From Planoprotostelium fungivorum (lineage: Eukaryota > Evosea > Variosea > Cavosteliida > Cavosteliaceae): 64,000 nt of DNA. Below the pieces are notes generated by a model. That model was not told the DNA's origin and made no database searches. It worked only from the letters and a program-made list of their open reading frames with translations. The stretch is taken from assembly GCA_003024175.1 (NCBI GenBank), contig MDYQ01000121.1, forward strand, positions 297,524 to 361,523, given 5' to 3'. The first letter of the stretch is position 1, and each line of letters starts with the position of its first letter. This document shows, piece by piece, positions 31,366-64,000 of the stretch. The position numbers and the translations under genes were made by a program.

Positions 31366-34300
31366 ATGAGAGAAGTCTACATCTCATCGATCTTCTTCCT
31401 CTCCGTGGTGATCTTGCCGACCGCAGCTCAGAGCGAAGGTCTCTCTACAGTGGAAAGTCTGAGAAATGTCTGGTTGACCGCCGGTGGGTCTTCTGATTAT
31501 TACAAAGGACAGAACGTGAGTACTCGTGACGAGAGTGTTCTGTCTGAGAGTCGAACGACAGCCCTGCAACACGACCGACTTCCTCGGTGTCACATGCACG
31601 AATGACATCGTCACGGATCTTTCACTGACTGGAAAGAGTCTGAACGGAACACTGTCGCCTTCCATCGGTAGCGTCGGCCCTTCATCTCTATCATCTGAAA
31701 GTATCGCAGGCAGTTTGACGAATCTGACGAGTCTGATCATCGCTTCGACTAAGCTGAATGGACAGATACCCTCTACCATCGGTCAGCTGAAAAGTTTGAC
31801 CTACCTCCACTTGTACGACAGCAATTTTAGCGGACCCCTTCCTTCTTCTTTGGGAAATCTATCTAATCTGCAAAACTTGGACCTCAGCTATAACTTTCAG
31901 TGAATCATCAAAGTGCAGAAGCGAAGAGAAGATGACAGAGCATAGGTTGAATGGGTCAATTGACGTCCTACAGGGCTGTACAAGCCTCACGAGCATCACC
32001 TTGGTGACTTCTATTCTCATCATCTTCTCATCTGATGAGCACAGGGCATCAACAGCTTCACAGGAGAGATACCACCCTTCATTTTCAACTCTTCCATCAC
32101 ATACGCGGTACTGGGCCACAATCAATTCACTTATCCTCCCAACGTCATCTTCTCTTCTCCTTCTAAACTGACTGCTCTTTATCTTGGAGGTGAGATGATG
32201 TTGTACATCATTTACTGAAGGAGATGAAGGTATGGGGACGTTGGGAGATCTACCTCCCTATCTCTATGGAAATCTGACAGCTGTAAGTGCCTTATCCATT
32301 GACGGTAATAATGTTGCTGCTCTGCAAGACGACTTTGCCTCTGCCTTTCCCAATGTTGTCGAGTTTAACTTGGGATTTAATCCTCTGACATCGATTCCGT
32401 CACTGGTCACGATGACCAGCTTAACCAGTATTATTCTATCCAACAGCTACAACCTACGAAACATCACCAGTGTGTTGGTCAATCTGCCACAGTCCATCAC
32501 ATCCCTCAACCTCGATAACACAAGTAAGTGAAGTAGAACAAACTACTTTCCATAACACCTTCATCAGATGTCGAGGGAACGCTAGATGGAATGTCATCTC
32601 TGTTACCCAATCTGGTCAATCTGGTCATGTACAACGTCTATCTGTCTGGCGATCTGAGTGGACTGACATCTCTGTTCAATCTCAAGACACTGTCCATGAG
32701 AAGTGCCTTCCAAGGCTCGACAGCAAACAGAACGCTTCCTGCATCTTTTGGCAGTCTGAGTCAGCTGACATCTGTGGATCTGAGCGTGAGACTGGATGAT
32801 GTGATGTCTGTGATGACTGAAGGATCAGCACAATAATCTGATCGGTGGGATACCCTCGAGTCTGTCACAACTGCATGATTTGAACACACTGGATCTCAGG
32901 TGATCTATTCAGCTTGTCAAATAGTTAACGAAAACAGCTACAACTATCTCAATGGATCGGTACCATCTTTCATTAACGCCTCAACCTTCCCTTCCGTCAC
33001 ATCGATCGATTTATCGAGTAATCAGTTGATTCAGATCGATGCAAATGCTCTCAGTGGCATTCAATCCACATGCTCTGTTACCAACAATCCGCTGTCATGC
33101 TTCACTGCCCAGCCTCTGAATTCAACTTGCTTGATAGCGGTCAATGCAACATGTCCATTACAGTTGCTATACAGTGAAGACACATTGATCTCTTCCAGCG
33201 ATGCACAAGTGAGAAGATAAGAAGGAGAAGACGACTGAATGCGAATGCAGGGCATACTGAACAAGTCCACGTGGTCAGACCAAGTGAGTCTCATGTGTCA
33301 CGTCTTGTTGTAATACTCATGTATGATAGACAATAGTGATTGCAGCTGTGATGACTGCTCTGTTACGCACGACTAAGACGTTCACCTATACGTTTAACAC
33401 TACATCAATCAGCCTGCAGACGTACAATCTGAGTGTCATCGGCTCAGCAGTGATAGAGAACAAGATAGAGGGTCAGAACAGCTCTGTCAGTCTTCCAGCG
33501 TCAACAGTGGCAGAGTATAACGAAGGTGAGAGAACATGGAAAGAACAGAAAGAAGTAGAGACTGAGAGAGACAGTGTCTGTGGCACTCTCTTCTGTAGAT
33601 GCGATATCTCTTCTGTCTCTCTACAACCAGTCGATGTGAGTGTCTAGTTGTACAAGTCGTGAAAGGTGAGTGACGAAGGGACAGAAGAGGCAGAGTGATA
33701 GGAGTGCAAGTGTATGACGAGAGAGGAAGAGAGGTAGAGATAGTAGGAATGACAGAGAAGATCAACATCACTATAGGCTACATCGATGACATTCCTTCTG
33801 ATCAAGGTGAGTCGAATCACGATGTATGGTGAACAAGAAAATGAATCAAGGATAGCGGCAGTGTGTCAGTGGTGGAATGAGACACAGAAAGGATGGTCAC
33901 GTGACGGTTGTGATCTCTATATAGACGAAGCACGTTTGGCAGTGTGTCAGTGCAATCACCTCACAAATTTCTCTGTCGCGGTGGGGCCTTCCAGCGCTAC
34001 ACCCGTGAATGAAGGGGCCATACCTGCAGACGGAGGAATGTCGACAACGACTCTGATCATCATCATCTGCTGTGCTGCGGGTGGATCAATCCTCATTCTG
34101 TCCATCATCGCTATCCTCCTTATCAGGCGAAGCAGAACGGTGAGAGTTATTATGAGATGCGTCTGAACAAAAAGCAGACGAAAGGCGAAACGATGATCAG
34201 CATGACTGGCGGCGAAGAGATGAAAGGAAGAGTGACGATGGAAAGAAAGGAAAGAGAAGAAGAAGGCATAGAGACATGGAAGGCAGAGTGTGACGGCGTG

Positions 34301-35329
34301 ACTGCAGTCTGTGTGATGAAGGCAGTCAACGCAAGGGGCAAGGCAGAGCTGACGAGAGAGGCTGTCATGTTGCAGGTGAGAGAGAAGAGAAAGAAAGACC
34401 GGAGAGCGTCGAGAGCTGAGAGAGAAACAGAGACAGCATCATCCGAATATAGTGATGTATCTGGGTAAAGACAGTGCAGGTGTGATAACATGACGAGAGG
34501 AAATTGAAAGAAGCTAAAAGAGAGGACAGAAGGGTACATCGTGACAGAGTGGATGAACGCAGGAAGACTACAGGAATATGTGAAAAAGGAGGAGCTGGAT
34601 CTGAGCAGACTACTCAAGATGTGAGCGAAATTGAAGAGAGAAGAGCTGAACGGTATGCAGAGGAGAAGATGTGGCAAAGGGAATGACGTACATCCATGAA
34701 CAAGGTCTCGTACACACTCATCTCACAGCCAAGAGCGTGAGTCACCTTCACAATGACCACGAATGATGATGCTGAAGATCACCTGCAGGTGTTCTTGAGT
34801 GTGCTCGATGGAGAAGTGACAGCCAAGATAGCCAACATGCGTCACGCTGTCACAGAAGGTGACAGAGCAGAGCAGCGACAGATGGGACCGCACACAGTGA
34901 GTGACAGCAGAGACGAGAAGAGAGCTGACAGAGAGCGAGGCGCCAGAGGTAGGCAGAGAAGGAGTGTACAAGAAAGCATCAGATGTGTACAGCTATGGAC
35001 TGCTTTTGTGGTCGATGGTCGAACAAGAAGACATATCTGAGCAGGTGATGTCTTTCTCACACGCAGAATGTGCTGAACGCACTTAGACAGGAAAATGTCT
35101 TGCAACGAGAGAGTCCTCAGCCATAATGACGAAAAGCTGGGACACAGGAATGAAAGCTCTCGTTCTCAGCTGTGCCCAAACAGAAGATAGACCCAAATTC
35201 CTCGACATCGCAAAGAAGTTGAGGATACGAAGACAAGCTGCCTCTGCAGACGTGAAGAGCAAGGGGGTCGACAGGGCAGGGAAGCTCCACAGAGAAGACA
35301 CAAGTGGCGAATCATACGCACACCTCTAG
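31366..35329 (+). CDS. receptor copy A: LRR-GPS-TM-pseudokinase
   Basis: ATG 31366; signal peptide (IFFLSVVILPTAAQ). A conserved block ESLRNVWLTAGGS...YYKGQN precedes intron 1, then CNTTDFLGVTC (LRR N-cap) and plant-like LRRs (LNGTLSPSIG, NLTSLIIASTKLNGQIPSTI), mostly one or two repeats per exon to about 33.2 kb. A GAIN-like region (YNLSVIGSAVIENKIEG) leads to a four-Cys GPS motif at about 33860-33980 (VCQWWNET, DGCDLY, AVCQCNHLTNF). The membrane helix is at 34035-34125. Kinase-like domain: VCVMKAV keeps Lys and TREAVML keeps Glu, but HRD reads HTH (near 34710) and DFG is replaced in KIANMRHAV (34825). APE and SDVYSYGLLLW remain, as does the C-lobe end SCAQTEDRPKFLDIAKK. Stop 35327-35329. It is the most diverged copy. 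Confidence 0.75.
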
Positions 35330-35453
35330 TGCACCATAAAATTTGCCACATTCAACCTGTCTTACATCAGAGATCCTCCTTCGATGATTGAGTGGTAACA
35401 ATTCATGTGAGGGACCTGCAACCTGTTCTAGGCCGGAATAATCCGAAGTTGAT

Positions 35454-38400
35454 TTATCTTTTGGTTTTGACAACGAGGGCTGACGCCATTCGCCTTGTCA
35501 GCTGGCTCAAGCTCGCTCTATCTTCCTTCTTCTCTCGCACACTGTCTCCGATCAATCCTGCCACTTTCTCGTCTGTCATGCCCTCTGTCGTGTATGTCTC
35601 TCTCTTCTGACTCTTGTACACGTCCATTCTTCTGTTTGCCATAGCCCACAGCAACACATCCACACTCCACACATGTCCGCTCTCTGTCCATCTGCCTTCT
35701 CTCTCTACCTCTGGCGCCTGCCTCTTTTCACTCTCTCTTTCTCGTCATCACTTCTCTTCTCTCACTATGCATGTCTGCCTCTCTCCTTCTCTCACTTGTG
35801 TGCCCTCATCCACTGTACAGCTGAAAGAACAGAGCTTGGCTGTCAAAATTCCTCTGCCTGAGATCACTATCTGTGTCTCTCTTCAGCTTTCTTCATCATA
35901 CAATCACAACACAAAGATGACATACCTTGGATGGGATGACAGCTGTGTGAACTCTGCCCATGGACCCTATGTATGACAGTCCTTTGCTCACATCACTCGC
36001 TCTGTCTCTCTGTCAGATCTCGTCTCCATTTCATTTTCGTTCGTCTGCATTCGTTCATGTCACTTACATCGTCAGCATGCTATTTACACTCATCTGTTGT
36101 CTACTCGCGTACTCTGCCAGACTTCCTTGGTTCATCCATTCCATCACTACATACATCTCTGTCTCTCGTCACTCTCTCTTCCTTCTACTGTCTGTCTCAC
36201 CTTCTACATTGTAACCGAGATGCTGCACTACATTTGGATGATGTAACGACTGCCATCAACTCAGCATTTCTCCTTTCGGTATGAATAGTATACAACGATA
36301 TGTTATCCATGTAGCTACGTTCACCTTCATCAACTGACATTCTTCTCCGAATCTCTTCGCTTCCATCCTCTTCATCTTCTTCACTGCCACTGCTGTCGTT
36401 CCTCTATACGTTCCCTTCCACACTTCACTCTCTTCGCTCTCTGCTATCTTCTCTTCGTGCTTTATGGCGGTATCTATTACTGTACTCATTCGAATGTCTG
36501 CTGTCGCTCTGTACTGTTCCCTCTCAGTCTCTTCTCTTTCTTCTCTTCTCACCTTCTGACGGCCAAAGCGTTTGTAGATGAGAACAGCAGCCACAGAGAT
36601 GAGAATCAGTGCACCTGCAACACACAACACTGCGACGATGATCGCTGTCCTCGTGTTTGATGTTGGGGCCGATGTGGTGACAGAAGAAATATTTCTTTCA
36701 ACTGCGATGGAGAAGTTTGTGAGATGATTGCACTGACACACTGCCAGACGTGCCTCATCGATGTGTAGATCACAGCCGTCACGTGACCATACTCTCGGTG
36801 TCTCATTCCACCACTGGCACACTGCCGCTGCTTTCTCTCAGTCTCTGCTCTTCATCACAGATATCAGTGTTTCCGCTCACTCTGATTGGATGGAATGTCA
36901 TCGATGTATCCCATAGTGATGTTGATCTTCTCTGTCACTCCTCCTATCTCTACCTCTCTTCCATTGCCATCGTACACTTGCACTCCTATCACTCTGCCTC
37001 TTCTGTCTCTTTGTCACTCACCTTTCATAACATGCAAGCGAAAATATTCTCACATCGACTGGTTGTAAAAGGACAGAAGAGATGTCGAGTCTACAGATGA
37101 GAGTGCCACAGACACTATCTCTCTCAGTCTCTACTTCTTTCTGTTCCTTCCATGTTCTCTCACCTTCGTTATACTCTGCCACTGTTGACGCTGGAAGACT
37201 GACAGAGCTGTTCTGACCCTCTATCTTGTTCTCTATCATTACTGATCCAATCACACTCAGATTGTACGTCTGCAGGCTGATAGACGCAGTGTTGGATGTA
37301 TAGTTGAATGTCTTTGTGGTGCGCAACAAAGCAGTCAGCACAGCTGCGATCAATACGGTCTGCATTGTATTTAAGGATTGTATCGAGATGTCGACATATT
37401 TTGCTCACTTGATCGGATGAGGTGGCATTCGTCAGTATATTCTGCATTTGCGTTCAGTCGTCTTCATTTGCTTGTATCTTCTCACCTGTGCATCACTGGG
37501 AAGAATCAAAGTCTCTTGAGTCCAACGTACATGTAGCAGGGGCGGGCATTACGCAGGATGAATTGAGAGGCTTGACACTGACGCATGAGAATGGATTGTT
37601 GATAACAGAGCACTTGGATGGGTTTGTGAAGCCGCTGAGAGCATTCTTGTCGATCAGAGTGAACTGATTGTTAGACAGATCGATCGATCTCAGAGAAGGA
37701 AAGATACTGGCGTTCATGAAGGATGGCACAGATCCGTTGAGATAGTTGTTGCTGTTGTCGTTCGCCATTGAATCACATCGATGAATCACCTGAGGGTCAA
37801 TGTGTTGAGATTACGTAGTTGTGACAGGCTGGAAGGTATTCCACCGATCAAATTGTTGCGCTGACCCTTCAGTCAACACAGACATCACATCATCCAGTCT
37901 CACGCTCAGATCCACAGTCTTCAGCTGACTCAGACTGCCAAAAGATGCAGGAAGCGTTCTGTTTGCTGCCGAGCCTTGGAAGGCCTTGCTCATAGACAGC
38001 GTCATCAGGTTGTACAGAGATGTCAGTCCACTCAGATCGCCAGACAGGCGGACGTTGTTCATGTTCAAAGCGGTCAAATTGGGTAAAAGAGATGACATTG
38101 CATCCAGAGTTCCCTCGACATCTGACAGCGTTACAGAGAACTATTTTTGTTCCACGTCACTCACTTGTGCCATCGAGCCTCAGGTACGTGATGGACCGCG
38201 GCAGATTGACCATCAAATTTGTGAGATTTCGTAGATTGACATTGTTGTACAGCTCGACTCTGTTCAAGTTCTTCATCGAGACCAGGGACGGAATGGATGT
38301 CAGACCGTTGTTATTTCCCAAATCGATTTGAGTGATACTGGGAAAGGCAGAGGCGAAGTTGTCTTGCAGACGCTGGATGTTATTATTGCTGATCAATAAT

Positions 38401-39690
38401 GTTTGTACAGCCGTCAGATTTCCGTAAAGATAGGAAGGTAGATCTCCCGAAACTCTTAGACCTGATCTCCTTCAGTGAATGATGTTCGAGGCGAGTCTCA
38501 CCCGCAAATTGAATCGAAGTCAATTTAGAAGGAGAAGAGAAGATGACGTTGGGAGGATAAGCCAATCGATTGTCGGCCAGCACTGCTACTGTGATGGAAG
38601 AGTTGAACACAAAGGGTGGTATCTCTCCTGTGAAGTTGTTGAAGTTCTGTTGTGCACGTCAGATGAGGAATTAGACGAAAATGAGATTGAAATGTTACCA
38701 CGGCGATGCTCGTGAGGTTTGTACAGCCCTGTAGGACGTCAATCGACCCGCTCAGCCTGTACTCTGTCATCTTCTCTTCGCTTCTGCGCTTTATGGCTCA
38801 CCTCAAATTGTTGCTGACGTTCAAAGTTCTCAAATTGTACAGGTTTCCCATAGAAGAAGGAAGGGGTCCGCTAAACATGCTGTGAGACAACTGGAGATAG
38901 ATCAGACTCTGCAGCTGACCGATGGCAGGAGGTATCTGTCCGTTCATTTGAGTCGAAGAGATGTTCAGACTGTTCAGATTCGTCAGTTGACCTATCAATC
39001 TCAGCTGACGAAGGGGATGGATGTTACCGATGGAAGACGACAGTATTCCGTTCAGACTCTTCCCAGTCAGTGAAAGACTTGTGACGATGCCCTTCGTGCA
39101 TGTGACACCGAGGAAGTCGGTCGTGTTGCAGGGCTGTCGTTCGACTCTCAGACAGAACATTCATGATCAGGAATGGGTATTTGAGTGAGTGAGTGACCCC
39201 CCTGTTAAGTGAATATTTGAGTATCCCGAGGATAGGATACTCAAATACTCATGACAGTAGTCATTGCACGTGCGATGAGACGGCGTCCCACCTGAGAGAG
39301 GCAGGTACATCCGAGCAGGAGTCCAACAACAAGAGGAAGGATATTGTATCAATGAAGGTGGATCGTGCGTGATCGTCTTCGTCACACGATGTGATTGGTG
39401 ATGTGATGTGACATGTGTTGCCGTCATATGATGAATGAACGTAACGCATCATATCTAGAATGAGTATTGTTGAGTGAGTATCATCCTAAATGAGTGAGTA
39501 TTCGATGGAATGCGATACTCAAATACCCATTCCTGTTCATGATACAAGTACTCACGTTCTGTCCTCTGTAATAGCTAGTAGACCCACCGGCGGTCAACCA
39601 GACATCTCTCAGACTATCCGCTACAGCCTGAGCTGAGGTAGGACTGAGCACCAAGGTGAGGAAGAAGATCAGTAGCAGGCAGACTCTCAT
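35454..39690 (-). CDS. receptor copy B: LRR-GPS-TM-pseudokinase, with a MITE in intron 1
   Basis: ATG 39690; signal peptide (RVCLLLIFFLTLVLSPTSAQ), then DSLRDVWLTAGGSTSYYRGQ and intron 1, which is 46 nt in sister copies but here carries a 368-bp insertion. LRR exons run to about 37.5 kb, the GAIN-like region to 36.9 kb, the GPS motif lies at 36700-36820 (MCQWWNETPRVWSRDGC, AVCQCNHLTNFSIAV), and the TM helix at 36570-36650. Pseudokinase: AVAVKKM keeps Lys and ECQLMK keeps Glu. The Gly loop is IAESEESEVWKG (no glycines before V), HRD reads HTA (GRVHTAVIPSK, about 35960), and DFG reads SFS (AKLCSFSC, about 35830). The C-lobe ends SLSQLTRRMASALVV, stop 35454-35456. The kinase is clearly closer to C-E than to A. 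Tail to tail with copy A. Confidence 0.75.
39168..39535. mobile_element. hAT-like MITE in intron 1 of receptor copy B
   Basis: Terminal inverted repeats of 19 bp are perfect: CAGGAATGGGTATTTGAGT at 39168-39186 and its reverse complement at 39517-39535. They are flanked by an 8-bp direct repeat TTCATGAT (39160-39167 and 39536-39543). The homologous intron of copy C lacks the insert and has a single copy of the target. An 8-bp duplication and CAG... termini are typical of hAT elements. At 368 bp with no reading frame it is non-autonomous. Subterminal GAGTGAGT repeats and an internal hairpin (about 39211-39260) are also present. It lies within the intron, so splicing may continue. Confidence 0.88.
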
Positions 39691-41544: not shown

Positions 41545-44500
41545 TTACTTTTCGACGTAGACGTTATCGATTTGATGAGGCTGTGTTTCCCAGTTCTTCT
41601 TCTTCTCCTCTGGCGCCATTCTTCTCGTCATCTCGCTCAGGCTCACTCTCTCTTCTCTTCTCTCTCTCACACTGTCTCTGATCACTCCTGCCACTCTCTC
41701 GTCTGTCATGCCCTCTGTCGTGTATGTCTATCTCTTCTGACTGTTGTACACGTCCATTCTTCTGCTTGCCATAGCCCACAGCAACACGCCCACACTCCAC
41801 ACGTGTCCGCTCTCTGTCCATCTGCCTTCTCTCTCTACCTCTGGCGCCTGCCTCTTTTCACTCTCTCTTTCTCGTCATCACTTCTCTTCTCACTATGCAT
41901 GTCTGCCTCTCTCCTTCTCTCACTTGTGTGCCTTCGTTGACTACGCAACAAAAGGAAGAAAGTTTGGCTGTCACTATGCCATGTCCTGTGATCACTATCT
42001 GTCCCTCTCTCAGCTCTCATCATCTTACAATCACAACACAAAGATGACATACCTTGGATGGAATGACAGCTGTGTGTACTTTGCCCATGGACGCTATGTA
42101 TGACAGTCCTTTGCTCACATCACTCGCTCTGTCTCTCTGTCAGCTTCTCTCTTTTCATTCTCCATCGTCTTCATCCTTGTGTCTCACATCGTCAGCATGC
42201 TGTCCACGCTCATTTCTTGTCCTCTCGCATACTCTGCCAGATTGCCTTCACTCATCCATTCCATCACTACATACATCTCTGTCTCTCTTCACTCTCTCTT
42301 CTTTCTACCATATGCCTCACCTTGCATGTTGTGACCGAGATACTGCACTACATTTGGATGATGTAACGACTGCCATCAACTCAGCTTTCTTTCTTCCTTT
42401 CGATATGATATCCATACGAAGGGTTGCTATTCGTGCAAGTGTCCTCTCACTTTCATCAGCTGACATTCTTCTCCGAATCTCTTCGCTTCCATCCTCTTCA
42501 TCTTCTTCACTGCCACTGCTGTCGTCTCTCTGTACGTTCCCTTCCACACTTCGCTCTCTTTGCTCTCTGCTATCTTCTCTTCGTACTTGACGGCTGCTTC
42601 TGTCACTGTGCTCATTCCTATGTCTTCCATCGCTCTGTACTGTTCTCTCTTCAATCTCTTCCCTCTTTCGTCTGTTCTCTCACCCTCTGACGACCAAAGT
42701 GTTTGTAGATGAGAACAGCAGCCAGAGAGATGAGAAGCAGTCCACCTGCAGCACAGCATACAGCGATGATGATCACTGTCCTTGTTGGAGCTGATGATGC
42801 ATTCTGATCGAGAGCGATAGAGAAGTTTGTGAGATGATTGCACTGACACACTGCCAGGCGTGCTTCGTTGATGTACAGATCGCAGCCTTCACGTGACCAT
42901 ACTCTCGCTGTCTCATTCCACCACTGACACACTGCCTCTGTTCTGTCTCAGTATTCTATGATCAGAATTGGCGAATTTACTTACTTTCATCAGAAGGGAT
43001 ATCATTGATGTATCCCATAGTGATGTTGATCTTCTCTGTCACTCCTCCTATCTCTACCTCTCTTCCATTGCCATCGTACACTTGCACTCCCACCACTCTG
43101 CCTCTTCTGTCTCTTTGTCACTCACCTTTCACAGCTTGTACAACTATAGACTCACATCGACTGGTTGTAAAAGGACAGAAGAGATGTCGAGTCTACAGAT
43201 GAGAGTGCCACAGACACTATCTCTCTCAGTCTCTACTTCTTTCTGTTCCTTCCATGTTTCTCACCTTCGTTATAGTCTGCCACTGTTGACGCTGGAAGAC
43301 TGACAGAGCTGTTCTGACCCTCTATCTTGTTCTCTATCATTACTGATCCAATCACACTCAGATTGTACGTCTGCAGGCTGATTGATGCAGTGTCGGATAT
43401 ATAGTTGAACATCTTTGTGGTACGTAACAGAGCTGTCATCACAGCTGCGATCACCATCGTCTACATCATACATCAGCATCGCAGTGTGACAACATGTACG
43501 ACTCACTTGGTCTGTCGACGGAAACTGCTTCAGTATGTCCTGCATTTGCATTCAGTCGTCTTCACCTCCTCACACTCTCTCACTTTTGCCGCACTAGAAG
43601 AGATCAATGTGCCTGCACTGTACAGCAACTGTAATGGACATGTTGTGTTCACTGATATCGAGCAATTTGAGTTGAGAGGCTGCGCAGTGAAGCATGAGAA
43701 TGGATTGTTGATCATAGAACATGTGGATGTGAAGCCGCTGAGAGCGTTCTCCTCGATCAGAGTAAACTGATTGTTAGACAGATCGATTGATGTCAGATTA
43801 GGAAAGGTACTGACGTTCATGAAGGATGGTATAGATCCGTTGAGATAGTTAGATCTGTTGTCGTTCACCTTTCAATCACATCGATGAATCACCTGAGGTT
43901 CAGTGTTGTGAGAGCTTGTACTTGCGACAGACTAGAAGGTATTCCGCCAACCAAATTGTTGCTCTGTCCCTCTTCAGTCAGCACAGACGTTGTATCACTC
44001 AGTCTCACGCTCAGATCCATAGACGTCAGCTGACTCAGACTGCCAAAAGATGCAGGAAGTGTTCTGTTTGCTGTCGAGCCTTGGAAGGCATTGCTCATAG
44101 ACAGCGTCGTCAGCTTGTACAGAGATGTCAGTCCACTCAGATCGCCAGACAGACGGACATTTTTCATGATCAGAGTGACAAGAATGGGTAACAGAGATGA
44201 CATTCCATCCAGTGTTCCGTTGACATCTGATGACAGCGTTACGGAGATCAGTTTGTGTTCCACTTCACTCACATGTGCTATCGAGGTTGAGGTACGTGAT
44301 GGACTGTGGCAGATTGATCATCAAACTGGTGACATTTCGTATATTGTAGTTGTTGTACAGCTCGATCTTGGTCAAGTTGATCATTGTGACCAGTGACGGA
44401 ATCGATATCAGACGATTATATGCCAAGTTGAGGTTGGTAATGCTTGGAAAGGCAGAGGCAAAGCTGTCTTGCAGAGCAGTGATGTCATTACCATCGACAG

Positions 44501-45425
44501 ATAAGGTCGTCACACTTGTCAGATTTCCATAAAGATAGGAAGGTAGATTTCCCATCGTCCCTATACCTTCATCTCCTTCAGTGAATGATGTACAACATCA
44601 TCTCACCTCCAAGATAAAGAGATGTCAACTTGGAAGGAGAGGAGAAGATGACGTTGGAAGGATAAGTGAAATTGTTGTAGCTCAGTTGCGCGAATGTGAT
44701 GGAAGAGTTGAACACAAAGGGTGGTATCTCTCCACTGAAGCTGTTCAAGTTCTGTTATGCTCGTCAGATGAGAAGATGAAGAGAACGAGTATCACCGTGC
44801 CGATGCTTGTGAGGTTTGTACAGCCCTTCAGCACATCGATTGACCTATTCAGTCTGTACTCTGTCATCTTCTCTTCGCTTCTGCACATCAATAGTTCACC
44901 GATAGTTATAGCTGAGGTCCAGGGTCTGTAGATTAGTCAGATTTCCCATAGAAGAAGGAAGGGGTCCGCTGAACATGCTGTGAGACAACTGGAGGTAGGT
45001 CAGACTCTGCAGCTGACCAATGGTAGAGGGTATCTGTCCATTCAGCTGAGTCGAATAGACGCTCAGACTCGTCAGATTCGTCAAACTACCTGCGATACTT
45101 TTAGCTGACGGAGAAGGAGTGACGCTACCGATGGAAGGCGACAGTGTTCCGTTCAGACTCTGTCCAGTCAGTGAAAGACCTGTGACGATGCCATTCGTGC
45201 AAGTGACACCGAGGAAGTCGGTCGTGTTGCAGGGCTGTCGTTCGACTCTCAGACAGAACATTCATGATACAAGTACTCACGTTCTGTCCTCTGTAATAGC
45301 TAGTAGACCCACTGGCGGTCAACCAGACATCTTTCAGACTATCCACAGTCTGAGAGGGATCTACACTCTGAGATGCGGTTGGCAAGATCACAGCGGAGAG
45401 GAAGAAGAAGCATAAGATCTTCTGC
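41545..45425 (-). pseudogene. receptor copy C: LRR-GPS-TM-pseudokinase, lost start and early stop
   Basis: The body is well preserved: LRR N-cap (CNTTDFLGVTC at about 45210), LRR exons to 43.6 kb, the GAIN-like region, GPS at 42820-42932 (MCQWWNETARVWSREGC, AVCQCNHLTNFSIAL), TM at 42705-42785, N-lobe KGTYRETTAVAVKKMKRMEA, HTA instead of HRD (about 42080) and SFC instead of DFG (about 41960). Two lesions are visible. The signal peptide (ILCFFFLSAVILPTASQ) has no ATG of its own and is fused at about 45425 to the kinase C-lobe DNA of copy D. A TAG at 41728-41730 interrupts the C-lobe where copies B and E read Glu (SQKR|ETYTTEG). Sequence homologous to the normal end continues to a TAA at 41545. 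It could still make a truncated protein if an upstream ATG in another frame is used. Confidence 0.6.
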
Positions 45426-48400
45426 TTGCCATAGCCCACAGCAACACGCCCACACTCCACACGTGTCCGCTCTCTGTCCATCTGCCTTCTCTCTCTACCT
45501 CTGGCGCCTGCCTCTTTTCACTCTCTCTTTCTCGTCCTCACTTCTCTTCTCACCATGCATGTCTGCCTCTCTCCTTCTCTCGCTTGTGTGCCCTCATCCA
45601 CTGTACAGCCAAAAGAACAGAGCTTGGCTGTCAAAATGCCTCTGCCTGAGATCACTATCACCTTCTACGTTGTGACCAAGGTACTGTACGACGTGTGGGT
45701 GATGCCATGACTGTTCTTATTTCAGCCTTCGCCCTTTCCTCCGTTTTCGCTCGATAGCCTCACCTTCATCAACTGACATTCATCCTTGAACTTGTCCACT
45801 TCTGTTCTCTTCATCTTCTTCACTGCCACTGCTGTCGTCTCTCTGTATCTTCCCTTCCACACTTCGCTCTCTTTGCTCTCTGCTATCTTCTCTTCGTACT
45901 TGACGGCTGCTTCTGTCACTGTGCTCATTCCTATGTCTTCCATCGCTCTGTACTGTTCTCTCTCAGTTTCCTCTCTTTCTTCTCTTCTCTCACCGTCTGA
46001 CGACCAAAGTGTTTGTAGATCAGAACAGCAGCCACAGAGATGAGAAGCAGTCCACCTGCAGCACAGCATACAGCAATGATGATCACTGTTCTTGTGTTCG
46101 ATGTTGGGACAGATGGGGTATTCTGATCGAGAGCGATAGAGAAGTTTGTGAGATGATTGCACTGACACACTGCCAGGCGGGTTTTGTCGATGTATAGATC
46201 GCAGCCATCACGTGACCATACTCTCAGTGTCTCATTCCACCACTGACACACTGCCTCTGTTCCCTCTCAGTATTCCATGAGTAGAATTAGTGAATTCTAC
46301 TTACTTCGATCATAAGCTATATCGATGTATCCCATAGTGATGTTGATCTTCTCTGTCACTCCTCCTATCTCTACCTCTCTTCCATTGCCATCGTACACTT
46401 GCACTCCTATCACTCTGCCTCTTCTGTCTCTTTGTCACTCACCTTTCATAACATGCAAGCGAAAATATTCTCACATCGACTGGTTGTAAAATGACAGAAG
46501 AGATGTCGCGTCTACAGATGAGAGTGCCACAGACACTATCTCTCTCAGTCTCTACTTCTTTCTGTTCCTTCCATGTTCTCTCACCTTCGTTATACTCTGC
46601 CACTGTTGACGCTGGAAGACTGACAGAGCTGTTCTGACCCTCTATCTTGTTCTCTATCATTACTGATCCAATCACACTCAGATTGTACGTCTGCAGGCTG
46701 ATAGACGTAGTGTCGGATGTATAGCTGAACGTCTTTGTGGTACGTAACAGAGCTGTCATCACAGCTGCGATCACTATCGTCTACACCATACATAAGGATA
46801 GAATTGAGATGTCGACATATTTTGCTCACTTGATCGGATGAGGTGAAATTCGTCAGTATATTCTGCATTCGCGTTCAGTCGTCTTCATTTGCTTGTATCT
46901 TCTCACCTGTGCATCACTGAGAGAGATCAAAGTGTCTTGGCTGTACAACGAGTCCAACGAACATTCAACAGAGGTGGGCATTACGCATAATGAGTTGAAA
47001 AGCTTGACACTAAAGCATGAGAATGGATTGTGGATAACAGAGCATGTGTTTGTAAAGCCGCTGAGAGCATTCTTGTCGATCAGAGTGAACTGATTGTTCG
47101 ACAGATCGATCGATCTAAGAGAAGGAAAAGTAGAACCGTTCATGAAAGATGGTACAGAACCGTTGAGATAGTTGTAGCTGTCGTCGTTCATTTTTCAATC
47201 ACTTTGATGAATCACCTGAGGGTCAATGTATTGAGATTACGTAGTTGTGACAGACTGGAAGGTATTCCACCGATCAAATTGTTGCTCTGACCCTTCAGTC
47301 AACACAGACGTCACATCACTCAGTCTCACGCTCAGATCCACAGTCGTCAGCTGACTCAGACTGCCAAAAGATGCAGGAAGTGTTCTGTTTGCTGTCGAGC
47401 CTTGGAAGGCATTGCTCATAGACAGCGTCGTCAGCTTGTACAGAGATGTCAGTCCACTCAGATCGCCAGACAGACGGACGTTGTTCAAGATCAGAGTGTT
47501 CAAATTGGGTAGAAGAGATGACATTCCATCCAGTGTTCCGTTGACATCTGATGACAGCGTTACAGAGAACTATTTTATGTTCTACTTCACTCACTTGTGC
47601 TATCGAGGTTGAGGGATGTGATGGACTGTGGCAGATTGACTAACACACTGGTGATATCTCGTAGGTTGTTATTGTTGACCAGTTCGACTTTGATCAAGCT
47701 GGTCATCGTGACTAGTGATGGAATTGATGTCAAAAGATTATATCCCAAGTTGAGATAGGTAACGTTGGGAAAGGCAGAGGCAAAGCTGTCTTGCAGAGCA
47801 GTGATGTTATTACCATGGATAAATAAGGTCGTCACACTCGTCAGATTTCCGTAAAGATAGGAAGGTAGATTTCCCAACGTCCCCATACCTTCATCTCCTT
47901 CAGTGAATGATGTACGAGATCATCTCACCTCCAATAGAAAGAGTCGCCAACTTGGAAGGAGAGGAGAAGATGACGTTGGAAGGATAAGTGAAATAATTGT
48001 AGCCCAGCTGTGCGGATGTGATGGAAGAGTTGAACACAAAGGGTGGTATCTCTCCACTGAAGTTGTTGAGGCCCTGTTGTGATCGTCAGATGAGATGATG
48101 ACGAGAACGAGAATCACCGTGATGATGCTCTTGAGATTTTTACAGCCCTGTAGAACGTCGATTGACCCGTTCAGCCTGTACTCTGTCATCTTCTCTTCGC
48201 TTCTGCACATCAATAGTTCACCGATAGTTATAGCTGAGATCCAGGGTCTGTAGATTGTACAGATTTCCCATAGAGGAAGGAAGGGGTCCGCCAAACATAT
48301 TGTTCATCAATTGGAGGTTTGTCAAACTCTTCAGCTGACCGATGGTGGAGGGTATCTGTCCATTCAGCCGAGTCATAGAGATGCTCAGACTCGTCAGATT

Positions 48401-48741
48401 CGTCAAACTACCTGCAAATATATCAGCTGACTGAGGACGGAGTAATGTTACCGATGGAAGACGACAGTGTTCCGCTCAGACTCAGTCCAGACAGTGAAAG
48501 ACCCGTGACGATGCCACTAGTGCAAGAGACACCGGGGAAGTCAGCTGAGTCGCAGGGCTGTTGTTCGACTCTCAGACAGAACATTCTCGATACAAGTACT
48601 CACGTTCTGTCCTTTGTAATAGCTCGTAGACCCACCGGCGGTCGACCAGACATCTCTCAGGCTTTCTACTACCTCCTGAGCTGCTGTCGGAGCGAGCACG
48701 CCAATGAGGAGAAAGAAGGATACGACGCAGACCCCGATCAT
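45426..48741 (-). pseudogene. receptor copy D: LRR-GPS-TM with internally deleted pseudokinase
   Basis: ATG 48741; signal peptide (GVCVVSFFLLIGVLAPTAAQ) and VVESLRDVWSTAGGSTSYYK, close to copy F. LRR exons, the GAIN-like region and GPS (46130-46251, VCQCNHLTNFSIAL) look intact, as do the TM helix (46020-46105) and kinase N-lobe (KGRYRETTAVAVKKMKRTEV). After HPHVVQYLGHNVE (about 45680) the hinge-to-catalytic-loop part is missing. The sequence jumps directly to that encoding ISGRGILTAKLCSFGC, out of frame, so translation would stop at LYSG (about 45600). The C-lobe then breaks off at ~45425 into the signal-peptide sequence of copy C. The ectodomain plus TM could still be expressed as a truncated receptor. 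Confidence 0.6.
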
Positions 48742-50401: not shown

Positions 50402-50710
50402 ATGAGTAACAAATCACGAGGACATCTTTCGATGGGACAACAGAAGTTATAAATCGATATTATATGGAGGAGAACTGGTTAACAAAGAACAAGAGGCTGC
50501 CATGGTCGCTGGTGCAGTTATCGAGACAGAGTTTGGCAAACCGTTGTTGGAAAAGACACAAAAGATGGAAGAACAGATCATCACGCTGATTGAGGAGGGC
50601 AATCAGAATACGTTGGTGAACGAAACGTTTCTCGTTAGATGATTGAACACCGACCGTTGTCCTGTAGGTCCTCCGAGAGTTGAAGAGTTGGAACACAATC
50701 TCCGTCCATC
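50402..50710 (+). pseudogene. relic of the coiled-coil/GRAM gene, 5' part
   Basis: It opens with the same ATGAGTAACAAATCACG as the intact gene at 52328 but stops after about 16 codons. Degraded matches follow to the coiled-coil exons (NKEQEAAMVAGAVIETEFGK, MEEQIITLIEEGNQNT, VEELEHNL). The ~140 bp before the ATG are also nearly the same as those before the intact gene. The promoter was therefore copied with the gene, which argues for segmental duplication rather than retroposition. Confidence 0.8.
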
Positions 50711-52327: not shown

Positions 52328-55300
52328 ATGAGTAACAAATCACGGGGAGCTCTCTCTCCAGGCAACAGGGGGTCCATGGATGTCTTCAGGAAGAGTTTAG
52401 ACATTCCAACCGATCTATCCGATGCACAAGTTTGGGAACAAGCATACAAGCAACTGGAGGAAGAATTGGCCAACAAAGAACAAGAGGTCGCCATGGTCGC
52501 TGGTGAACTCTTCGTTCTCGAATCAACTGTGATACGAGCACAGAGTTGGGTAAATCATTATTGGAGAAGAATCAAGAGATGGAAGGACAGATCATCACGT
52601 TGATCGAGAAGGACAACCAAAACACGATGGTGACGAAACGTTTCTCGATGAATGATCGATCACCGACCATGGTTATACAGGTCATCCAAGAGTTGGAACA
52701 CAATCTCGCAGAAGCCAAATCGAAGAGGAAACAAGAGAAGAGCGATGAGCCAACGTTTGATGCCAACTACCTCCAACAAGAGTACCGACTTCAGCAAGAG
52801 GTGAGCACCTCTGATGACCTGTCAAGATGTGATAGACGTGTCCTGACTCTTTCATAGAGGAACGAGCAGCTCATGCACACCCTAAATCAACTGCAACTGA
52901 ATCACGAGGATCTACAACAACAGATGAAGAAGAAGGACAAGCAAGCACAGAGCGAAGTGAGTCGAAAGACATCGGGAGAGGATGGACATCTCATGATGAT
53001 GTCGATTGATGGACGATGACCGATGAGAGAACAGGTGGCAGAGCTGAAGAAATCACTGTCGCACTTTGAAGAAGAGTCGCACAAACATCAGAAGTCATTA
53101 GAGTTGATGTTGACTCGTGACAACGAATACAAGAGGCAGACTTCACTCTTGGAGGCCGAAAAGAACAATCTGTCAGGTGTGACTCGTTGTAGAACAAACT
53201 TTTTGGGAAGATTCTGAGAAAAATCGTAGAACAGTGCGCTGCGCTGGACCAGAAATTGCAGAGCCTGACGAAGAACTACAACGAACTGAAGAGAAAATTC
53301 AAAGAAAAAGAATACGAGACCAACGAGGCCAGAGACCAACTCGAGCTGGTGAGTGGGAAAATTCGAGGAAAATGCTGAGGGGTAGAATAGTACAAGGAAG
53401 AGATGAAGGGATACGGAGACAACATTCACAATCTACAAACGACAGTGGCAACTCTGGTCAAGCAGAACTCACAGCTGCAGGTAGAGAACCAAGAGGTGAG
53501 TTTCCCGTCGAATTCCTCCCGCCAAAATTTTCCCGCTCAAAACGAGGATCTCAATTTCGAACAGCTGTCGGATCACTTGAGAGAACAGAGGGAGATGCAA
53601 ATGGGAGATCAGAGAAACCTACCCGAACACATCTCTAGCATGGACGCGGTGAATCTCTCGAATATGTACATCTACATCGTTGTAGACGCTCGATGATTCA
53701 CTCGTTCTAACTCACCTAGACGGACTCGTTGTTTGCCGAGCTGGCCCAATCGATTGGGACGCGAAAGCAAGATGTTGTTTCCGCTCCAGCACAGGATGCT
53801 GCGCCTCTCATTGATCTACAACCAGACGTACTTTCCACTACAACGAGCCAAAACGTCACGACGAATCCTCTGACGGACAGTCCACCCATCACGAACAGTC
53901 AATCTACAACGAGCCTCGTTCCCGCGTCCCCCGCAGCCAAGGACAATGGAAATTTGAGGGTGAAATCTCTTCGAATCTTCCGTCGTTTTTCACTGAAATT
54001 TCACAGGTGATTGGTCAAGTGAAGAAGAATCCATTGGAGTCAGACCATCACGTGGTGCGTACAATGTGCAATCGTACAGCCGGGAAAACTCACGGAACAT
54101 TCAGGTCGACCCCGGGGCTACCATGTCCGAGTTCTTCTTCACGGCAGCGGCAGCTGTGAAGATCAATCTATTTATAGCTTATCCAGATAAAGCTATCCAA
54201 CTACAAGAGGTCGATCTGAAGGTGCGTAACGTCATCATACGTCATCACATACCCTGATCACGTGACGCTGAAGAAGATTCACAGAAAATGTACGAAACGG
54301 CCATGAAGGAGAACATCGAATTCCATCAGTGGTATCCATGGATACAAGACCAGGTTCGTCTACATCGTTGTAGATGCCCGATGACGTAAACTGACGTCAT
54401 CAGTTCAATCAGCGAGTCATTTCGGTCAACCGTTCGGCGGCACCCGCTACTCCTCGCGGTGGACAGTCAGAAAGTTCCAAGAACGTTCCGCAGCCCACAC
54501 CGCTGAAGATGACAAAATCGGCAGAGACACCAAAGAAAGTGGTGGCATTACCACCCCAGCAGACTCAAACTACAAGCAGCCAAGATGGCGCCGCGTATAA
54601 CGAGTTGGAGAGGAAGGCGAATAACAACGGTAAGACATGGATCATGATCGTGTCGTGGTGCCGATCGACATGATGATCGTGACATCAATCTGCATCATCT
54701 CGATCGATCGAGATCATCATCATCATCTCTCCGAGAAGATGACACCGATCGATTCGCAGGTTTCAGTTTCTGCCCTCCCAACACCAGTCCCATCCCCGTT
54801 ACCTTCTTAGAAGAAGACGATTCCGACAGACACAAGCCCTACGCTGCCTTCGTTCACAAGTACCAAGATCAGAACACAGCCATGCACAAGATCTTCTCTT
54901 TCATGAAGCCCAGCGAGTTCCTCATCGAGTGTGAGTTTTAGATCGTGTGGAGAGTGATGACTGTGTCAGTCTATTCGAACTGCATGATGGATAACATCAA
55001 GGGAAATCTGTATGTGACGGAGCACGGAATTTATTTCCACGCGTTGAGACAGGTGAGGGTTTTATTTCGATTTATTTACACCCCACATTCTTCCATTCAT
55101 CTTATTGTTCCATCTTTTCATCTTCATTCTATGAATTCATAGAAGAGCGAATGTAGAGATGGATGTAAAAGTGAATTCTCCTTCATCTCATCTACACACA
55201 GACACCCACACAAGATTTACGCATCAAACTGCTGTACAACGACATCAAGAACATTCTCAAGCCATTCGGTCTATTCGTCTGGTCACGTGACATCTTCCAC

Positions 55301-57337: not shown

Positions 57338-57388
57338 GTTCCATCATCAATTCTTAGGGTCCACTCTGATCAGAATTGATGATGGAAC
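57338..57388. repeat. perfect 17-bp inverted repeat (hairpin) upstream of copy E
   Basis: GTTCCATCATCAATTCT at 57338-57354 and its exact reverse complement at 57372-57388, with a 17-nt spacer. It sits 118 bp before the receptor E start codon. It could be a small foldback element, a regulatory hairpin or the edge of a duplication. No target duplication found. Confidence 0.75.
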
Positions 57389-57505
57389 AAAGGGCGGCTT
57401 CGGAAAATTAAAAGCTTGTTCTCCTGAGACCGCGAATTGACGACAGCAAACGAACACATTCTCAGAAGAGGAACAAAGACACAGTCTCCAAACTCTGTTC
57501 CCCCA

Positions 57506-60500
57506 ATGAGAGGATTCTGCTTCTTGTCGATCTTCCTCCTCTCCGCTGTGATATCACCGACCGCAGCTCAGGATGTGATAGTTAGCAGTCTGAGAGATGT
57601 CTGGCTGACCGCCAGTGGGTCTTCTGATTATTACAGAGGACAGAACGTGAGTACTTGTGACCAGAATGTTCTGTCTGAGAGTCGAACGACAGCCCTGCAA
57701 CTCAACTGACTTCCTCGGTGTCACATGCACGAATAGCACCGTCACGGGTCTTTCACTGACTGGACGGAATCTGAACGGAATGCTGTCGCCTTCCATCGGT
57801 ATTAATAACATCACTTCCTTGTTCTCTCTCTGTCAGCTGAAAATATTGCAGGGAATTTGACGAATTTGACCAGTCTGAGCATCACTTTGACTCAGCTGAA
57901 CGGACAGATACCCTCTACCATCGGTCAGCTGCAGAATCTGATCTCTCTCCAGTTGGCCAACAGCAACTTTAGCGGACCCCTTCCTTCTTCGATGGGAAAT
58001 CTGACTAATCTACAGAAACTAGACCTCAGCTATAACTATCGGTGAATCATCGATGTGCAGAAGCGAAGAGAAGATGACAGAGTACAGGCTGAACGGGTCG
58101 ATCGACGTTCTACAGAGCTGTACAAACCTCACGAGCATCGGCACGGTGATACTCGTTCTCATCATCTTCTCATCTGACGAGTACAACAGAACATCAACAA
58201 CTTCACAGGAGAGATACCACCCTTTGTGTTCAACTCTTCCATCACATTCGCGCAACTGGGCTACAATCAATTCACTTATCCTCCCAACGTCATCTTCCCT
58301 TCTCCTTCCAAATTGACATCTCTTTATCTTGGAGGTGAGTTGATATTGTACATCATTCACTGAAAGAGATGAAGGTATGGCGTCGTTAGGAAATCTACCT
58401 TCCTATCTTTATGGAAATTTGACGAGTGTGACGACCTTATCTGTCGACATTAATGACATCACTGCTCTGCAAGACAGCTTTGCCTCTGCCTTTCCAAACG
58501 TTACCAACCTCAACTTGGCATATAATCCTCTGACATCAATCCCGTCACTGATCACAATGAACAACTTGACCACGATCAATCTGTACAACAGCTACAATCT
58601 ACGAAACATCACCAGTGTGTTGGTCAATCTGCCACAGTCCATCACGTACCTCAACCTCGATAACACAAGTGAGTGAAGTGAAACACAAACTGTTCTCTGT
58701 AACGCTGTCATCAGACATCATCGGGACACTGGATGGAATGTCATCTCTGTTACCCAATCTTGTCACTCTGAGCATGAAAAACATCCGTCTGTCTGGTGAT
58801 CTGAGTGGACTGACATCTCTGCACAACCTCACGACGCTGTTGATGAGCAATGCCTTCCAAGGCTCGACAGCAAACAGAACGCTTCCTGCATCTTTGGGCA
58901 GTCTGAGTCAGCTGATGACTGTGGATCTGAGCGTGAGGCTGAGTGATACGACCTCTGTGTTGACTGAAGAGGAACAGAACAACAATTTGATCGGTGGAAT
59001 ACCTTCGAGTCTGTCGCAACTACAAGCTCTCAAAACACTGAACCTCAGGTGATATATTGAGGTGATCAGATAATGAAAGACAACAGATCTAACTATCTCA
59101 ACGGTTCTTTACCATCCTTCATGAACGCTTCTACCTTTCCTTCTTTGAGGTCGATCGATCTGTCTAACAATCAGTTTACTCTGATCGAGGAGAACGCTCT
59201 CAGCGGCTTCACATCCACATGTTCTATGATCAACAATCCATTCTCATGCTTCACTGCGCAGCCTCTCAACTCAAATTGCTCGATATCAGTGAACACAACA
59301 TGTCCATTACAGTTGCTGTACAGTGCAGGCACATTGATCTCTTCTAGTGCGGCAAAAGTGAGAGAATGTGAGGAGGCAAAGACGACTGAATGCAAATGCA
59401 GGACATACTGAAGCAGTTTCCGTCGACAGACCAAGTGAGTCGTACGTGTTGTCACACTGCGATGCTGAAGTATGATGTAGACGATAGTGATCGCAGCTGT
59501 GATGACAGCTCTGTTACGCACCACAAAGACGTTCAACTATACATCCGACATTGCGTCTATCAACCTGCAGACGTACAATCTGAGTGTGATTGGATCAGCA
59601 GTGATAGAGAACAAGATAGAGGGTCAGAACAGCTCTGTCAGTCTTCCAGCGTCAACAGTGGCAGACTATAACGAAGGTGAGAAACATGGAAGGAACAAAA
59701 AGAAGTAGAGGCTGAGAGAAACAGTGTCTGTGGCACTCTCATCTGTAGACTCGACATCTCTTCTGTCTCTTTACAACCAGTCGATGTGAGTCTATAGTTG
59801 TACAAGTTATGAAAGGTGAGTGACAAAGAGACAGAAGAGGCAGAGTGGTAGGAGTGCAAGTGTACGATGGCAATGGAAGAGAGGTAGAGATAGGAGGAAT
59901 GACAGAGAAGATCAACATCACTATGGGATACATCGATGACATCCCTTCTGATGAAAGTAAGTAGATTCGCCAATTCTGATCACAGAAGACTGAGACAGAA
60001 CAGAGGCAGTGTGTCAGTGGTGGAATGAGACAGCGAGAGTATGGTCACGTGAAGGCTGCGATCTGTACATCAACGAAGCACGCCTGGCAGTGTGTCAGTG
60101 CAATCATCTCACAAACTTCTCTATCGCTCTCGATCAGAATGCCCTATCAGCCACAACATCGAACACGAGGACAGTGATCATCATTGCTGTATGCTGTGCT
60201 GCAGGTGGACTGCTTCTCATCTCTGTGGCTGCTGTTCTGATCTACAAACACTTTGGTCGTCAGAAGGTAAGAGAACAGACGAAAGAGGGTAGAGATTGAA
60301 GAGAGAACAGTACAGAGCGATGGAAGACATAGGAATGAGCATAGTGACAGACACAGCCGTCAAGTACGAAGAGATGATTGCGGAGAGCAAAGATAGTGAA
60401 GTGTGGAAGGGAACGTACAGAGAGACGACAGCGGTGGCAGTGAAGAAGATGAAGAGGATGGAAGCGAAGAGATTTGGACAAGAGTGTCAGCTGATGAAGG

Positions 60501-61409
60501 TGAGAGGACACTTGCACGGATAGCAACCCTTCGTATGGATTTCATATCGAAAGGAAGAAAGAAAGCTGAGTTGATGGCAGTCGTTACATCATCCAAATAT
60601 AGTGCAGTATCTTGGTCACAACATGCAAGGTGAGGCAGATGGTAGAAAGAAGAGGGAGTGAAGAGAGACAGAGATGTATGTAGTGATGGAATGGATGAGT
60701 GAAGGCAGCCTGGCAGAGTATGCGAGAGGACAAGAGATGAGCGTGGACAGCATGCTGACGATGTGAGACACAAGAATGAAGACGATGGAGAATGAAAAGA
60801 GAGAAGCTGACAGAGAGACAGAGCGAGTGATGTGAGCAAAGGACTGTCATACATAGCGTCCATGGGCAAAGTACACACAGCTGTCATTCCATCCAAGGTA
60901 TGTCATCTTTGTGTTGTGATTGTAAGATGATGAGAGCTGAGAGAGGGACAGATAGTGATCACAGGACATAGCATAGTGACAGCCAAGCTCTGTTCTTTTG
61001 GCTGTACAGTCGACGAGGGCACACAAGTGAGAGAAGGAGAGAGGCAGACATGCATGGTGAGAAGATCTGTGACGGGGAAAGAGAGAGTGAAAAGAGGCAG
61101 GCGCCAGAGGTAGAGAGAGAAGGCAGATGGACAGAGAGCGGACACGTGTGGAGTGTGGGCGTGTTGCTGTGGGCTATGGCGAGCAGAAGAATGGACGTGT
61201 ACAACAGTCAGAAGAGAGAGACATACACGACAGAGGGCATGACAGACGAGAGAGTAGCAGGAGTGATAGAAGACAGTGTGAAAGAGAGAAGAGAAGAGAG
61301 AGTGAGCCTGAGCGAGATGACGAGAAGAATGGCGCCAGAGGAGAAGAAGAAGAACTGGGAGACACCGCGACCGAATCAAATGGATGGAAACGTGTACGTC
61401 GAACAATAA
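57506..61409 (+). CDS. receptor copy E: LRR-GPS-TM-pseudokinase, most complete copy
   Basis: ATG 57506; signal peptide (GFCFLSIFLLSAVISPTAAQ); SLRDVWLTASGSSDYYRGQN; a 46-nt intron 1; CNSTDFLGVTC; LRRs (NLTSLSITLTQLNGQIPSTI, NLISLQLANSNFSGPLPSSM, YLYGNLTSVTTLSV and others) to about 59.4 kb. The GAIN-like region (LQTYNLSVIGSAVIENKIEG, REVEIGGMTEKINIT) is followed by GPS at 60009-60130 (MCQWWNETARVWSREGC, AVCQCNHLTNFSIAL) and TM at 60170-60240. Pseudokinase 60300-61400: loop IAESKDSEVWKG without glycines, AVAVKKM (Lys kept), HPNIVQYLGHNMQ, YVVMEWMSEGSLAEY, KVHTAVIPSK for HRD, TAKLCSFGC for DFG, APEVEREG, HVWSVGVLLWAM (the F-helix Asp is His), SLSEMTRRMAPEE, end NVYVEQ and TAA 61407-61409. About 20 introns. 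No disabling lesion found. Confidence 0.8.
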
Positions 61410-62807: not shown

Positions 62808-63127
62808 TTCAGAGGACTGCAATAGAAAGGTCAGCTGTCTCGGATTTGAAGCGGATGTTGTTGAAGGAAATGAGGGACATCTGTGACGATGCATTTACCT
62901 CTGAAGGAGAGAAGTTTCGTGAGCGACTACTCTGGAAGGGGTGATGTGTCTGATGGCGGCGGAGGTCAACCATCGGATTACGACAGAACGTTTCTGCCTT
63001 GTGGAGCGCGTGCAAAAACGGGGCAGAAGAGGGAAAGAAGAATTCCAAGAAGGACATATTATTATTACCGTCGGAGGACAAAGAACGCTCGTCCTTCGAC
63101 GACCTCTACAACGGATAACTGACGAAC
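62808..63127. other. upstream region of receptor copy F
   Basis: Minus-strand flank of the GRAM relic followed by the promoter side of copy F. It contains the inverted repeat block shared with 41.4 and 52.07 kb (near 62950), GTGCAAAAACGGGGCAGA (63010-63027) and about 100 bp shared with the upstream region of copy D. A CTACAACG octamer lies 15 bp before the start codon (63106-63113). Confidence 0.55.
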
Positions 63128-64000
63128 ATGATCGGGGTCTGCATCGTATCCTTCTTCCTCCTCTTTGGCGTGCTCGTTCCGACCCAAGCTCAGAGTCCCT
63201 CTGTAGCGATCAGTCTGAAAGACATCTGGTCGGCTGCCGGTGGGTCTACTAGCTATTACAGAGGACAGAACGTGGGTACTTCTATCGAGAATGTTCTGTC
63301 TGAGAGTCGAACGACAGCCCTGCGACTCAACTGACTTCCTCGGTGTCACTTGCTCGAATGGCATCGTCACAGGTCTTTCACTGACTGGAAAGAGTCTGAA
63401 CGGAACACTGTCGCCTTCCATCGGTAACCTCACTCCTTCTCTGTCAGCTAAAAGTGTCGCAGGTAGTTTGACGAATCTGACGAGTCTGAGCATCTATTCG
63501 ACTCAGCTGAATGGACATATACCCTCCACCATCGGTCAGCTGCAGAGTCTGACCTATCTCAAGTTGTCTAACAGCATGTTCAGCGGACCCCTTCCTTCTT
63601 CGATGGGAAATCTGACTAATCTGCGTACCTTGGACCTCAGCAATAATACTGGGTGAACTATCTCTGTGCAGAAGCGAAGAGAAGATGACAGAGCACAGGT
63701 TGAACGGGTCAATCAACGTCCTACAGGGCTGTACAAACCTCACGAGCATCGGCACGGTGATACTCGTTCTCTTCATCTTTTCATCTGACGAGACAACAGA
63801 ACTTGAACAGCTTCAGTGGAGAGATACCACCCTTTGTGTTCAACTCTTCCATCACATCCGCACAACTGAGCTACAACAAGTTCAGTTATCCTTCCAACGT
63901 CATCTTCTCCTCTCCTTCCAAGTTGACATCTCTTCTTCTTGGAGGTGAGATGATGTTGTACATCATTTACTGAAGGAGATGAAGGTATGGGGACGTTGGG
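63128..64000 (+). CDS. receptor copy F: LRR N-terminal part, cut by window end
   Basis: ATG 63128; signal peptide (GVCIVSFFLLFGVLVPTQAQ), SLKDIWSAAGGSTSYYRGQN, intron 1 (GTGGGT donor rather than GTGAGT), TDFLGVTC, and LRRs (LNGTLSPSIG, NLTSLSIYSTQLNGHIPSTI, YLKLSNSMFSGPLPSS). The sequence leaves the window within the LRR region. The first exon and upstream DNA are closest to copy D. The GPS, TM and kinase parts cannot be seen. Confidence 0.75.

Follow-up and report, generated by a model that had tools for sequence, protein, structure and literature searches.

Results

A cluster of LRR receptor genes

We analyzed a 64,000-nucleotide (nt) stretch of the Planoprotostelium fungivorum genome (assembly GCA_003024175.1, contig MDYQ01000121.1, positions 297,524 to 361,523 of the forward strand; hereafter the window). 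Its positions 31,366 to 64,000 carry a cluster of genes for predicted receptors that combine leucine-rich repeats (LRRs), a GPS motif, one transmembrane (TM) helix and a kinase-like domain. The copies, here called A to F, lie as follows:

31366..35329, plus strand: copy A, an intact receptor gene with 19 introns and 1034 amino acids; curated splice model without internal stop, every intron GT-AG
35454..39139, minus strand: copy B, a damaged paralogue; the guided model ends at 35454, the spliced alignment to E at 35484
41548..45415, minus strand: copy C, damaged, with ectodomain, TM helix and pseudokinase; spliced alignment to E
45418..48741, minus strand: copy D, with intact ectodomain and TM helix, its kinase damaged and its tail cut and fused to the start of C
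57506..61409, plus strand: copy E, an intact receptor gene with 19 introns and 990 amino acids; curated splice model, recovered by spliced self-alignment
63128..63998, plus strand: copy F, which shows a signal peptide and its first LRRs and is open up to the end of the window; spliced alignment to E

The gene models are conceptual, A and E being curated splice models and B, C and D being derived from spliced alignment to E with approximate splice sites. Only two genes of the cluster, A and E, run unbroken from their start to their stop codon; the introns of A are 38–61 nt long, and those of E are GT-AG introns of 38–81 nt in a model with no internal stop. In both, a signal peptide and an LRRNT-like start are followed by plant-type LRRs, a GAIN-sized stretch with a terminal GPS, a stalk, one TM helix and the kinase-like domain, and this LRR-GPS-kinase order is present in the sequence far beyond chance.

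Copy B lacks exon 1 with the signal peptide, its upstream DNA keeping only the apparent end of the first intron, and its spliced alignment requires one frameshift, near 37516. Copy C has no clean start codon and carries a single in-frame stop at E residue 928, in the kinase C-lobe, and in copy D E residues about 808–862 are deleted from the kinase and a frameshift is needed. An initial reading made from the sequence alone (hereafter the sequence-only reading) had counted five copies with complete ectodomains; the GAIN/GPS part is indeed found in five, but a whole ectodomain from the start codon is found in three (A, D and E), the start of C being doubtful. Between 45300 and 45520 (minus strand), the kinase C-lobe of D joins the signal-peptide exon of C directly (...AMASRR / LCFFFLSAVILPT), and this junction is a scar of tandem fusion if it is not an assembly error. 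Since intact and damaged copies coexist with such signs of tandem fusion, the cluster, with two copies intact, three damaged and one cut off, is one of birth and death.

GPS, TM helix and kinase-like domain in one gene

That the LRRs, the GPS, a single TM helix and the kinase-like domain belong to one gene, as the sequence-only reading had it, was supported: a single spliced model covers them in both A and E, and in copy B the membrane-proximal parts share one frame.

36256..36837, minus strand: GPS, TM helix and kinase N-lobe of copy B, a single stop-free frame by direct translation

This frame runs from 36837 down to 36256 and extends to QLMK in the N-lobe, with a 39-nt in-frame intron inside it according to the spliced alignment. 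Because it is read straight through, the link from GPS to kinase is independent of guessed splicing, and on this uninterrupted frame we rejected the possibility that the GPS and kinase exons sit on separate transcripts. The differing histories of the two halves of copy A, described below, could be taken to mean that the LRR-GAIN-GPS part and the kinase-like part are neighbouring transcripts, but the common frame of GPS, TM helix and N-lobe in B and the recurrence of the order in five copies, with intron positions mostly matching across A–E (spliced alignment, judged by eye), leave this explanation hardly credible. One intron of E, at 57799–57836, is not matched in A, B, C or F.

The GPS motif and its cleavage site

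The signature CQWW...W...GC...CQCNHLTNF occurs at five places, 33864 (plus strand), 36819, 42929 and 46248 (minus strand) and 60012 (plus strand).

33861..33977, plus strand: GPS of copy A, with the scissile HL/T between the codons ending at 33962 and starting at 33963
60009..60125, plus strand: GPS of copy E, with the scissile bond at 60110/60111
36721/36720 (copy B), 42831/42830 (copy C) and 46150/46149 (copy D), minus strand: scissile bonds, from the motif position

All five copies agree in the four cysteines of the GPS, in its WW and W positions and in HLT. The Pfam GPS family PF01825 matched the whole copies E and A at 1.3e-9 and 2.2e-10 (38.8 and 41.3 bits), and matched pieces of B, of C and E (where the piece is identical) and of D at 6.6e-11, 3.8e-12 and 5.6e-12 (43.0, 47.0 and 46.4 bits), so that every copy exceeds the curated cut-off of 22.5 bits. 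The GPS pattern that the sequence-only reading had seen before the TM helix, with HL/T kept, is thus significant and retained in all five, and as judged by the profile the motif is a member of the GPS family. A search of the PDB with a five-copy profile, carried to an E of 10, gave 20 sequences, every one an adhesion G-protein-coupled receptor (GPCR), the best at 4.6e-5; copy E alone gave 21 matches, namely 19 adhesion GPCRs and two weak unrelated ones.

The GAIN-sized stretch upstream of the GPS

59499..60134, plus strand: GAIN-sized stretch of copy E with its GPS; the GPS end is significant, the upstream part weak

With the GPS attached, the stretch of copy E gave a weak whole-length alignment to the adhesion GPCR ADGRG2 (E = 0.0025), and the five-copy profile aligns with ADGRG2 from position 132 onward only. 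When the upstream alignment to ADGRG2, which was picked because it aligned, was compared with composition shuffles, local p values were 0.003 (E), 0.056 (D) and 0.001 (A), and global z values 3.3–4.9. A complete GAIN domain has, besides the GPS, a beta-sandwich before it (subdomain B) and a helical subdomain A; from these alignments we consider it probable that the part before the GPS has such a fold.

Residues 541–630 (59559–59925, plus strand, in E, and the homologous parts of A–D) are among the stretches that differ least from copy to copy, with nucleotide identities of 0.91–0.99 in the five pairs shown, which may come from recent gene conversion.

In some adhesion GPCRs the GAIN domain stays uncleaved, and the GPS here could likewise be an uncut, disulphide-stabilised fold next to the membrane, which would make the proteins LRR receptors of the ordinary uncleaved kind, with a pseudokinase as scaffold. 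The similarity upstream of the GPS is weak, so the catalytic environment may be incomplete, as this explanation would have it. However, HL/T is invariant even in the damaged copies, despite synonymous divergence (dS) of up to 0.42 in the module, and we regard the uncleaved form as unlikely, although it deserves to be taken seriously.

The LRR ectodomain and the TM helix

57735..59237, plus strand: plant-type LRR array of copy E (LRR_8 1.2e-17, LRR_4 1.9e-17), with the LRRNT-like stretch PCNSTDFLGVTC before it
34047..34121, plus strand: single TM helix of copy A, from the hydropathy scan
60171..60245, plus strand: single TM helix of copy E, from the hydropathy scan

The LRR_8 match of copy A reached 2.9e-20. 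Thirteen relaxed strand motifs, three of them strict, were found in the array of copy E, and ten were used in a test of surface variation. Exposed LRR positions proved more variable than the rest (38/50 vs 125/315; with a first strand set, 41/60 vs 120/297), and such variable surfaces suggest a role in recognition. Positive selection on the concave face was rejected: over all 10 pairs the ratio of nonsynonymous to synonymous divergence (dN/dS) was equal at exposed and other positions (0.52 and 0.52), because dS was raised at the exposed positions too (0.65 vs 0.26, all 10 pairs); for the pair A–E alone it was 0.64 vs 0.43. In the hydropathy scan, only the signal peptide and one TM stretch each rose above 1.6 in A and E.

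The pseudokinase tail

34244..35254, plus strand: pseudokinase domain of copy A, introns included (PK_Tyr_Ser-Thr 9.6e-27), with HTHLTAKS for HRDxxxxN and ANM for DFG
60362..61298, plus strand: pseudokinase domain of copy E, introns included (PK_Tyr_Ser-Thr 1.4e-24), with HTAVIPSK and CSFG at these places

The nearest PDB match of the domain was Src-type for copy E (1.6e-20) and TYK2 for copy A (2.9e-16, followed by EGFR at 1.3e-15 and CTR1 at 1.9e-14). The HRD aspartate is lost in all four copies that have the loop (E, A, B and C; D has no loop) and the DFG aspartate in all five, while the beta3 lysine is present in five of five, one column later in A, and APE is kept. By these residues the tail is a pseudokinase, in agreement with the label given to it by the sequence-only reading.

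The loss of the catalytic residues, together with the damage to B, C and D, would also fit a mostly dead cluster, that is, a decaying pseudogene array without a working receptor. But A and E are open across 1034 and 990 codons, the kinase dN/dS is below 0.5 (0.18–0.41) in all 10 pairs, so that the fold seems to be preserved and not in decay, and the same catalytic losses are found in two tails, that of A and the E-like one, which are only about 35% identical. We therefore consider a dead array very unlikely.

Two histories in copy A

In 60-codon windows, the nucleotide identity between A and E is 0.77–0.94 through residue 690, 0.63 in the window 661–720 and 0.39–0.56 from residue 691 on. At the residue level, A and E part after CQCNHLTNFSVA/SIA, about six residues beyond the scissile bond. 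Between A and E, dS is 0.31 for GAIN plus GPS vs about 2 for the kinase; between B and E it is 0.18 and 0.36. For GAIN plus GPS, dN/dS is 0.16–0.44 in 8 of the 10 pairs, and the two others, E–D (1.07) and C–D (0.81), both have dS near 0.06. Because selection on the protein is not expected to shift dS six-fold, the ectodomain and the tail of A have different histories. As these comparisons indicate, copy A is an E-like ectodomain joined to an anciently diverged TM-pseudokinase, which is new here, and the joining is attributed, on the same alignments, to recombination or gene conversion. That the breakpoint falls just past the scissile site may be a coincidence, there being one event only.

Other features of the window

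In the gap between receptor copies, 50264–50682 and 52190–52695 are a pair of diverged direct copies, spaced by about 2 kb, which match over 167 nt at 89%, 53 nt at 83% and 63 nt at 79%. Outside the cluster, three stretches matched Pfam families:

4636..6689, plus strand: TPR repeats, then a glycosyltransferase family 41 piece (PF13844, 4.5e-14), an O-GlcNAc-transferase-like gene
14484..15152, plus strand: TRAF-type zinc finger (PF02176, 2e-11)
20242..20841, minus strand: piece of a GH125 metal-independent alpha-mannosidase (PF06824, 6.4e-25)

Discussion

Comparison with known receptors

The GPS of the cluster is like that of adhesion GPCRs in its four cysteines, its tryptophan positions and HL/T, and TNFSIAL resembles the tethered-agonist consensus TxFAVLM; LRRs are among the extra domains of these receptors (PMC12716839). 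Unlike them, the present proteins have one TM helix instead of seven, a pseudokinase tail and no seven-TM (7TM) pocket for a tethered agonist: a 7TM region after the GPS was not found in A or E, which showed one TM helix and no 7tm Pfam match at E up to 1.

Polycystin-1 also has LRRs, and REJ and PLAT domains are marks of PKD1-like proteins; REJ and PLAT were not among the Pfam matches of copies A and E at E up to 1. Polycystin-1/PKD1-like proteins share with the cluster a GAIN/GPS in the ectodomain adjoining the membrane, and GAIN is said there to be known from these proteins and adhesion GPCRs (PMC11697300), but polycystin-1 has 11 TM helices, not one.

With an LRR ectodomain, one TM helix and a kinase domain (Pfam, hydropathy), A and E have the order of the LRR receptor kinases of plants, oomycetes, Monosiga, Chlorella and Ectocarpus, which share the lineage-specific expansions and have multiple origins (PMC3268121); in contrast to these, a GPS/GAIN-sized module stands between LRR and TM helix here, and the kinase core residues are lost. 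Drosophila Cirl exists in an adhesion-GPCR isoform with one TM helix, but the receptor it varies has seven, the isoform appears to pair with that 7TM form, and the passage cited mentions no kinase-like domain (PMC13197933). GPCR-TKL/K fusions of choanoflagellates, oomycetes and amoebozoans join a membrane receptor to a kinase tail, although with seven TM helices, and outside holozoans GAIN and 7TM are stated to occur separately (PMC12716839). A passage on amoebozoan family 2 GPCRs reports no GAIN detected (PMC10445921), and GPS as a term is absent from the main text of the papers on the genomes of Acanthamoeba and Physarum (PMC4053784, PMC4758236).

The sequence-only reading had taken the order to be undescribed, which is consistent with the open-licence PMC literature, the scope searched, where looking for "GAIN domain" together with "pseudokinase" gave no paper; precedents present only in databases are possible. 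An alignment scan for GAIN/GPS gave 155 pattern matches in viral and 26 in prokaryote contigs, none confirmed by tblastn, and says little on protists because the collections consist of viruses and prokaryotes.

A putative two-part receptor

We lean towards a birth-and-death cluster of single-pass receptors with an LRR binding part, a self-cutting GAIN/GPS and a catalytically dead kinase fold that would signal. Its starting points, namely the architecture, the GPS homology, the kept cleavage residues, the lost catalytic residues and the differing halves of A, are supported directly, and onto them a GAIN fold, cleavage, tethering and signalling would be added as follows. The LRR ectodomain would bind the ligand, and the GPS, by established GAIN biology, would cut itself at HL/T in the secretory path. 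The outer fragment, consisting of the LRRs and most of the GAIN, would stay non-covalently on the inner one, which would consist of the beta-strand TNFSIAL, a stalk of about 20 residues, the TM helix and the pseudokinase. A ligand or force acting on the LRR part may then loosen or remove the outer fragment and free the TNFSIAL strand, upon which the inner half would change its pairing, exposure or shape; since one TM helix offers no 7TM pocket, such a change is the form that signalling would take. The pseudokinase may relay the signal as a scaffold or an allosteric partner of an active kinase.

Several points weigh against this reading. The part upstream of the GPS matched no Pfam family when taken alone (0/2 pieces, copies E and D), and the copy D piece found no adhesion GPCR in the PDB, only four weak matches to one other protein. 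Of the GAIN/GPS module proposed by the sequence-only reading, the GPS homology stands, while the upstream GAIN part lacks a Pfam match (E, D) and a standalone adhesion-GPCR match (D); the Pfam check of copy E that it had suggested came out in the same way, with GPS, LRR and kinase significant and no family upstream of the GPS. A freed strand may have no effect in a one-pass receptor. Finally, the kinase is reached in five loci, and three of these (B, C and D) are damaged.

If the favoured mechanism applies, these would be two-part receptors with exchangeable halves, possibly serving in the sensing of prey or non-self. More tentatively, and with somewhat less confidence than we give the mechanism itself, we propose that they are autoproteolytic one-pass LRR pseudokinase receptors in which GAIN, with no 7TM core, acts as a release switch and whose halves are re-paired at the cleavage site by recombination or gene conversion, so that one recognition half could serve different signalling halves. 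Were cleavage true, the cluster would hold a GAIN switch unable to use the 7TM agonist pocket, and the family would separate the effect of GAIN itself, mechanical release, from activation by a tethered agonist.

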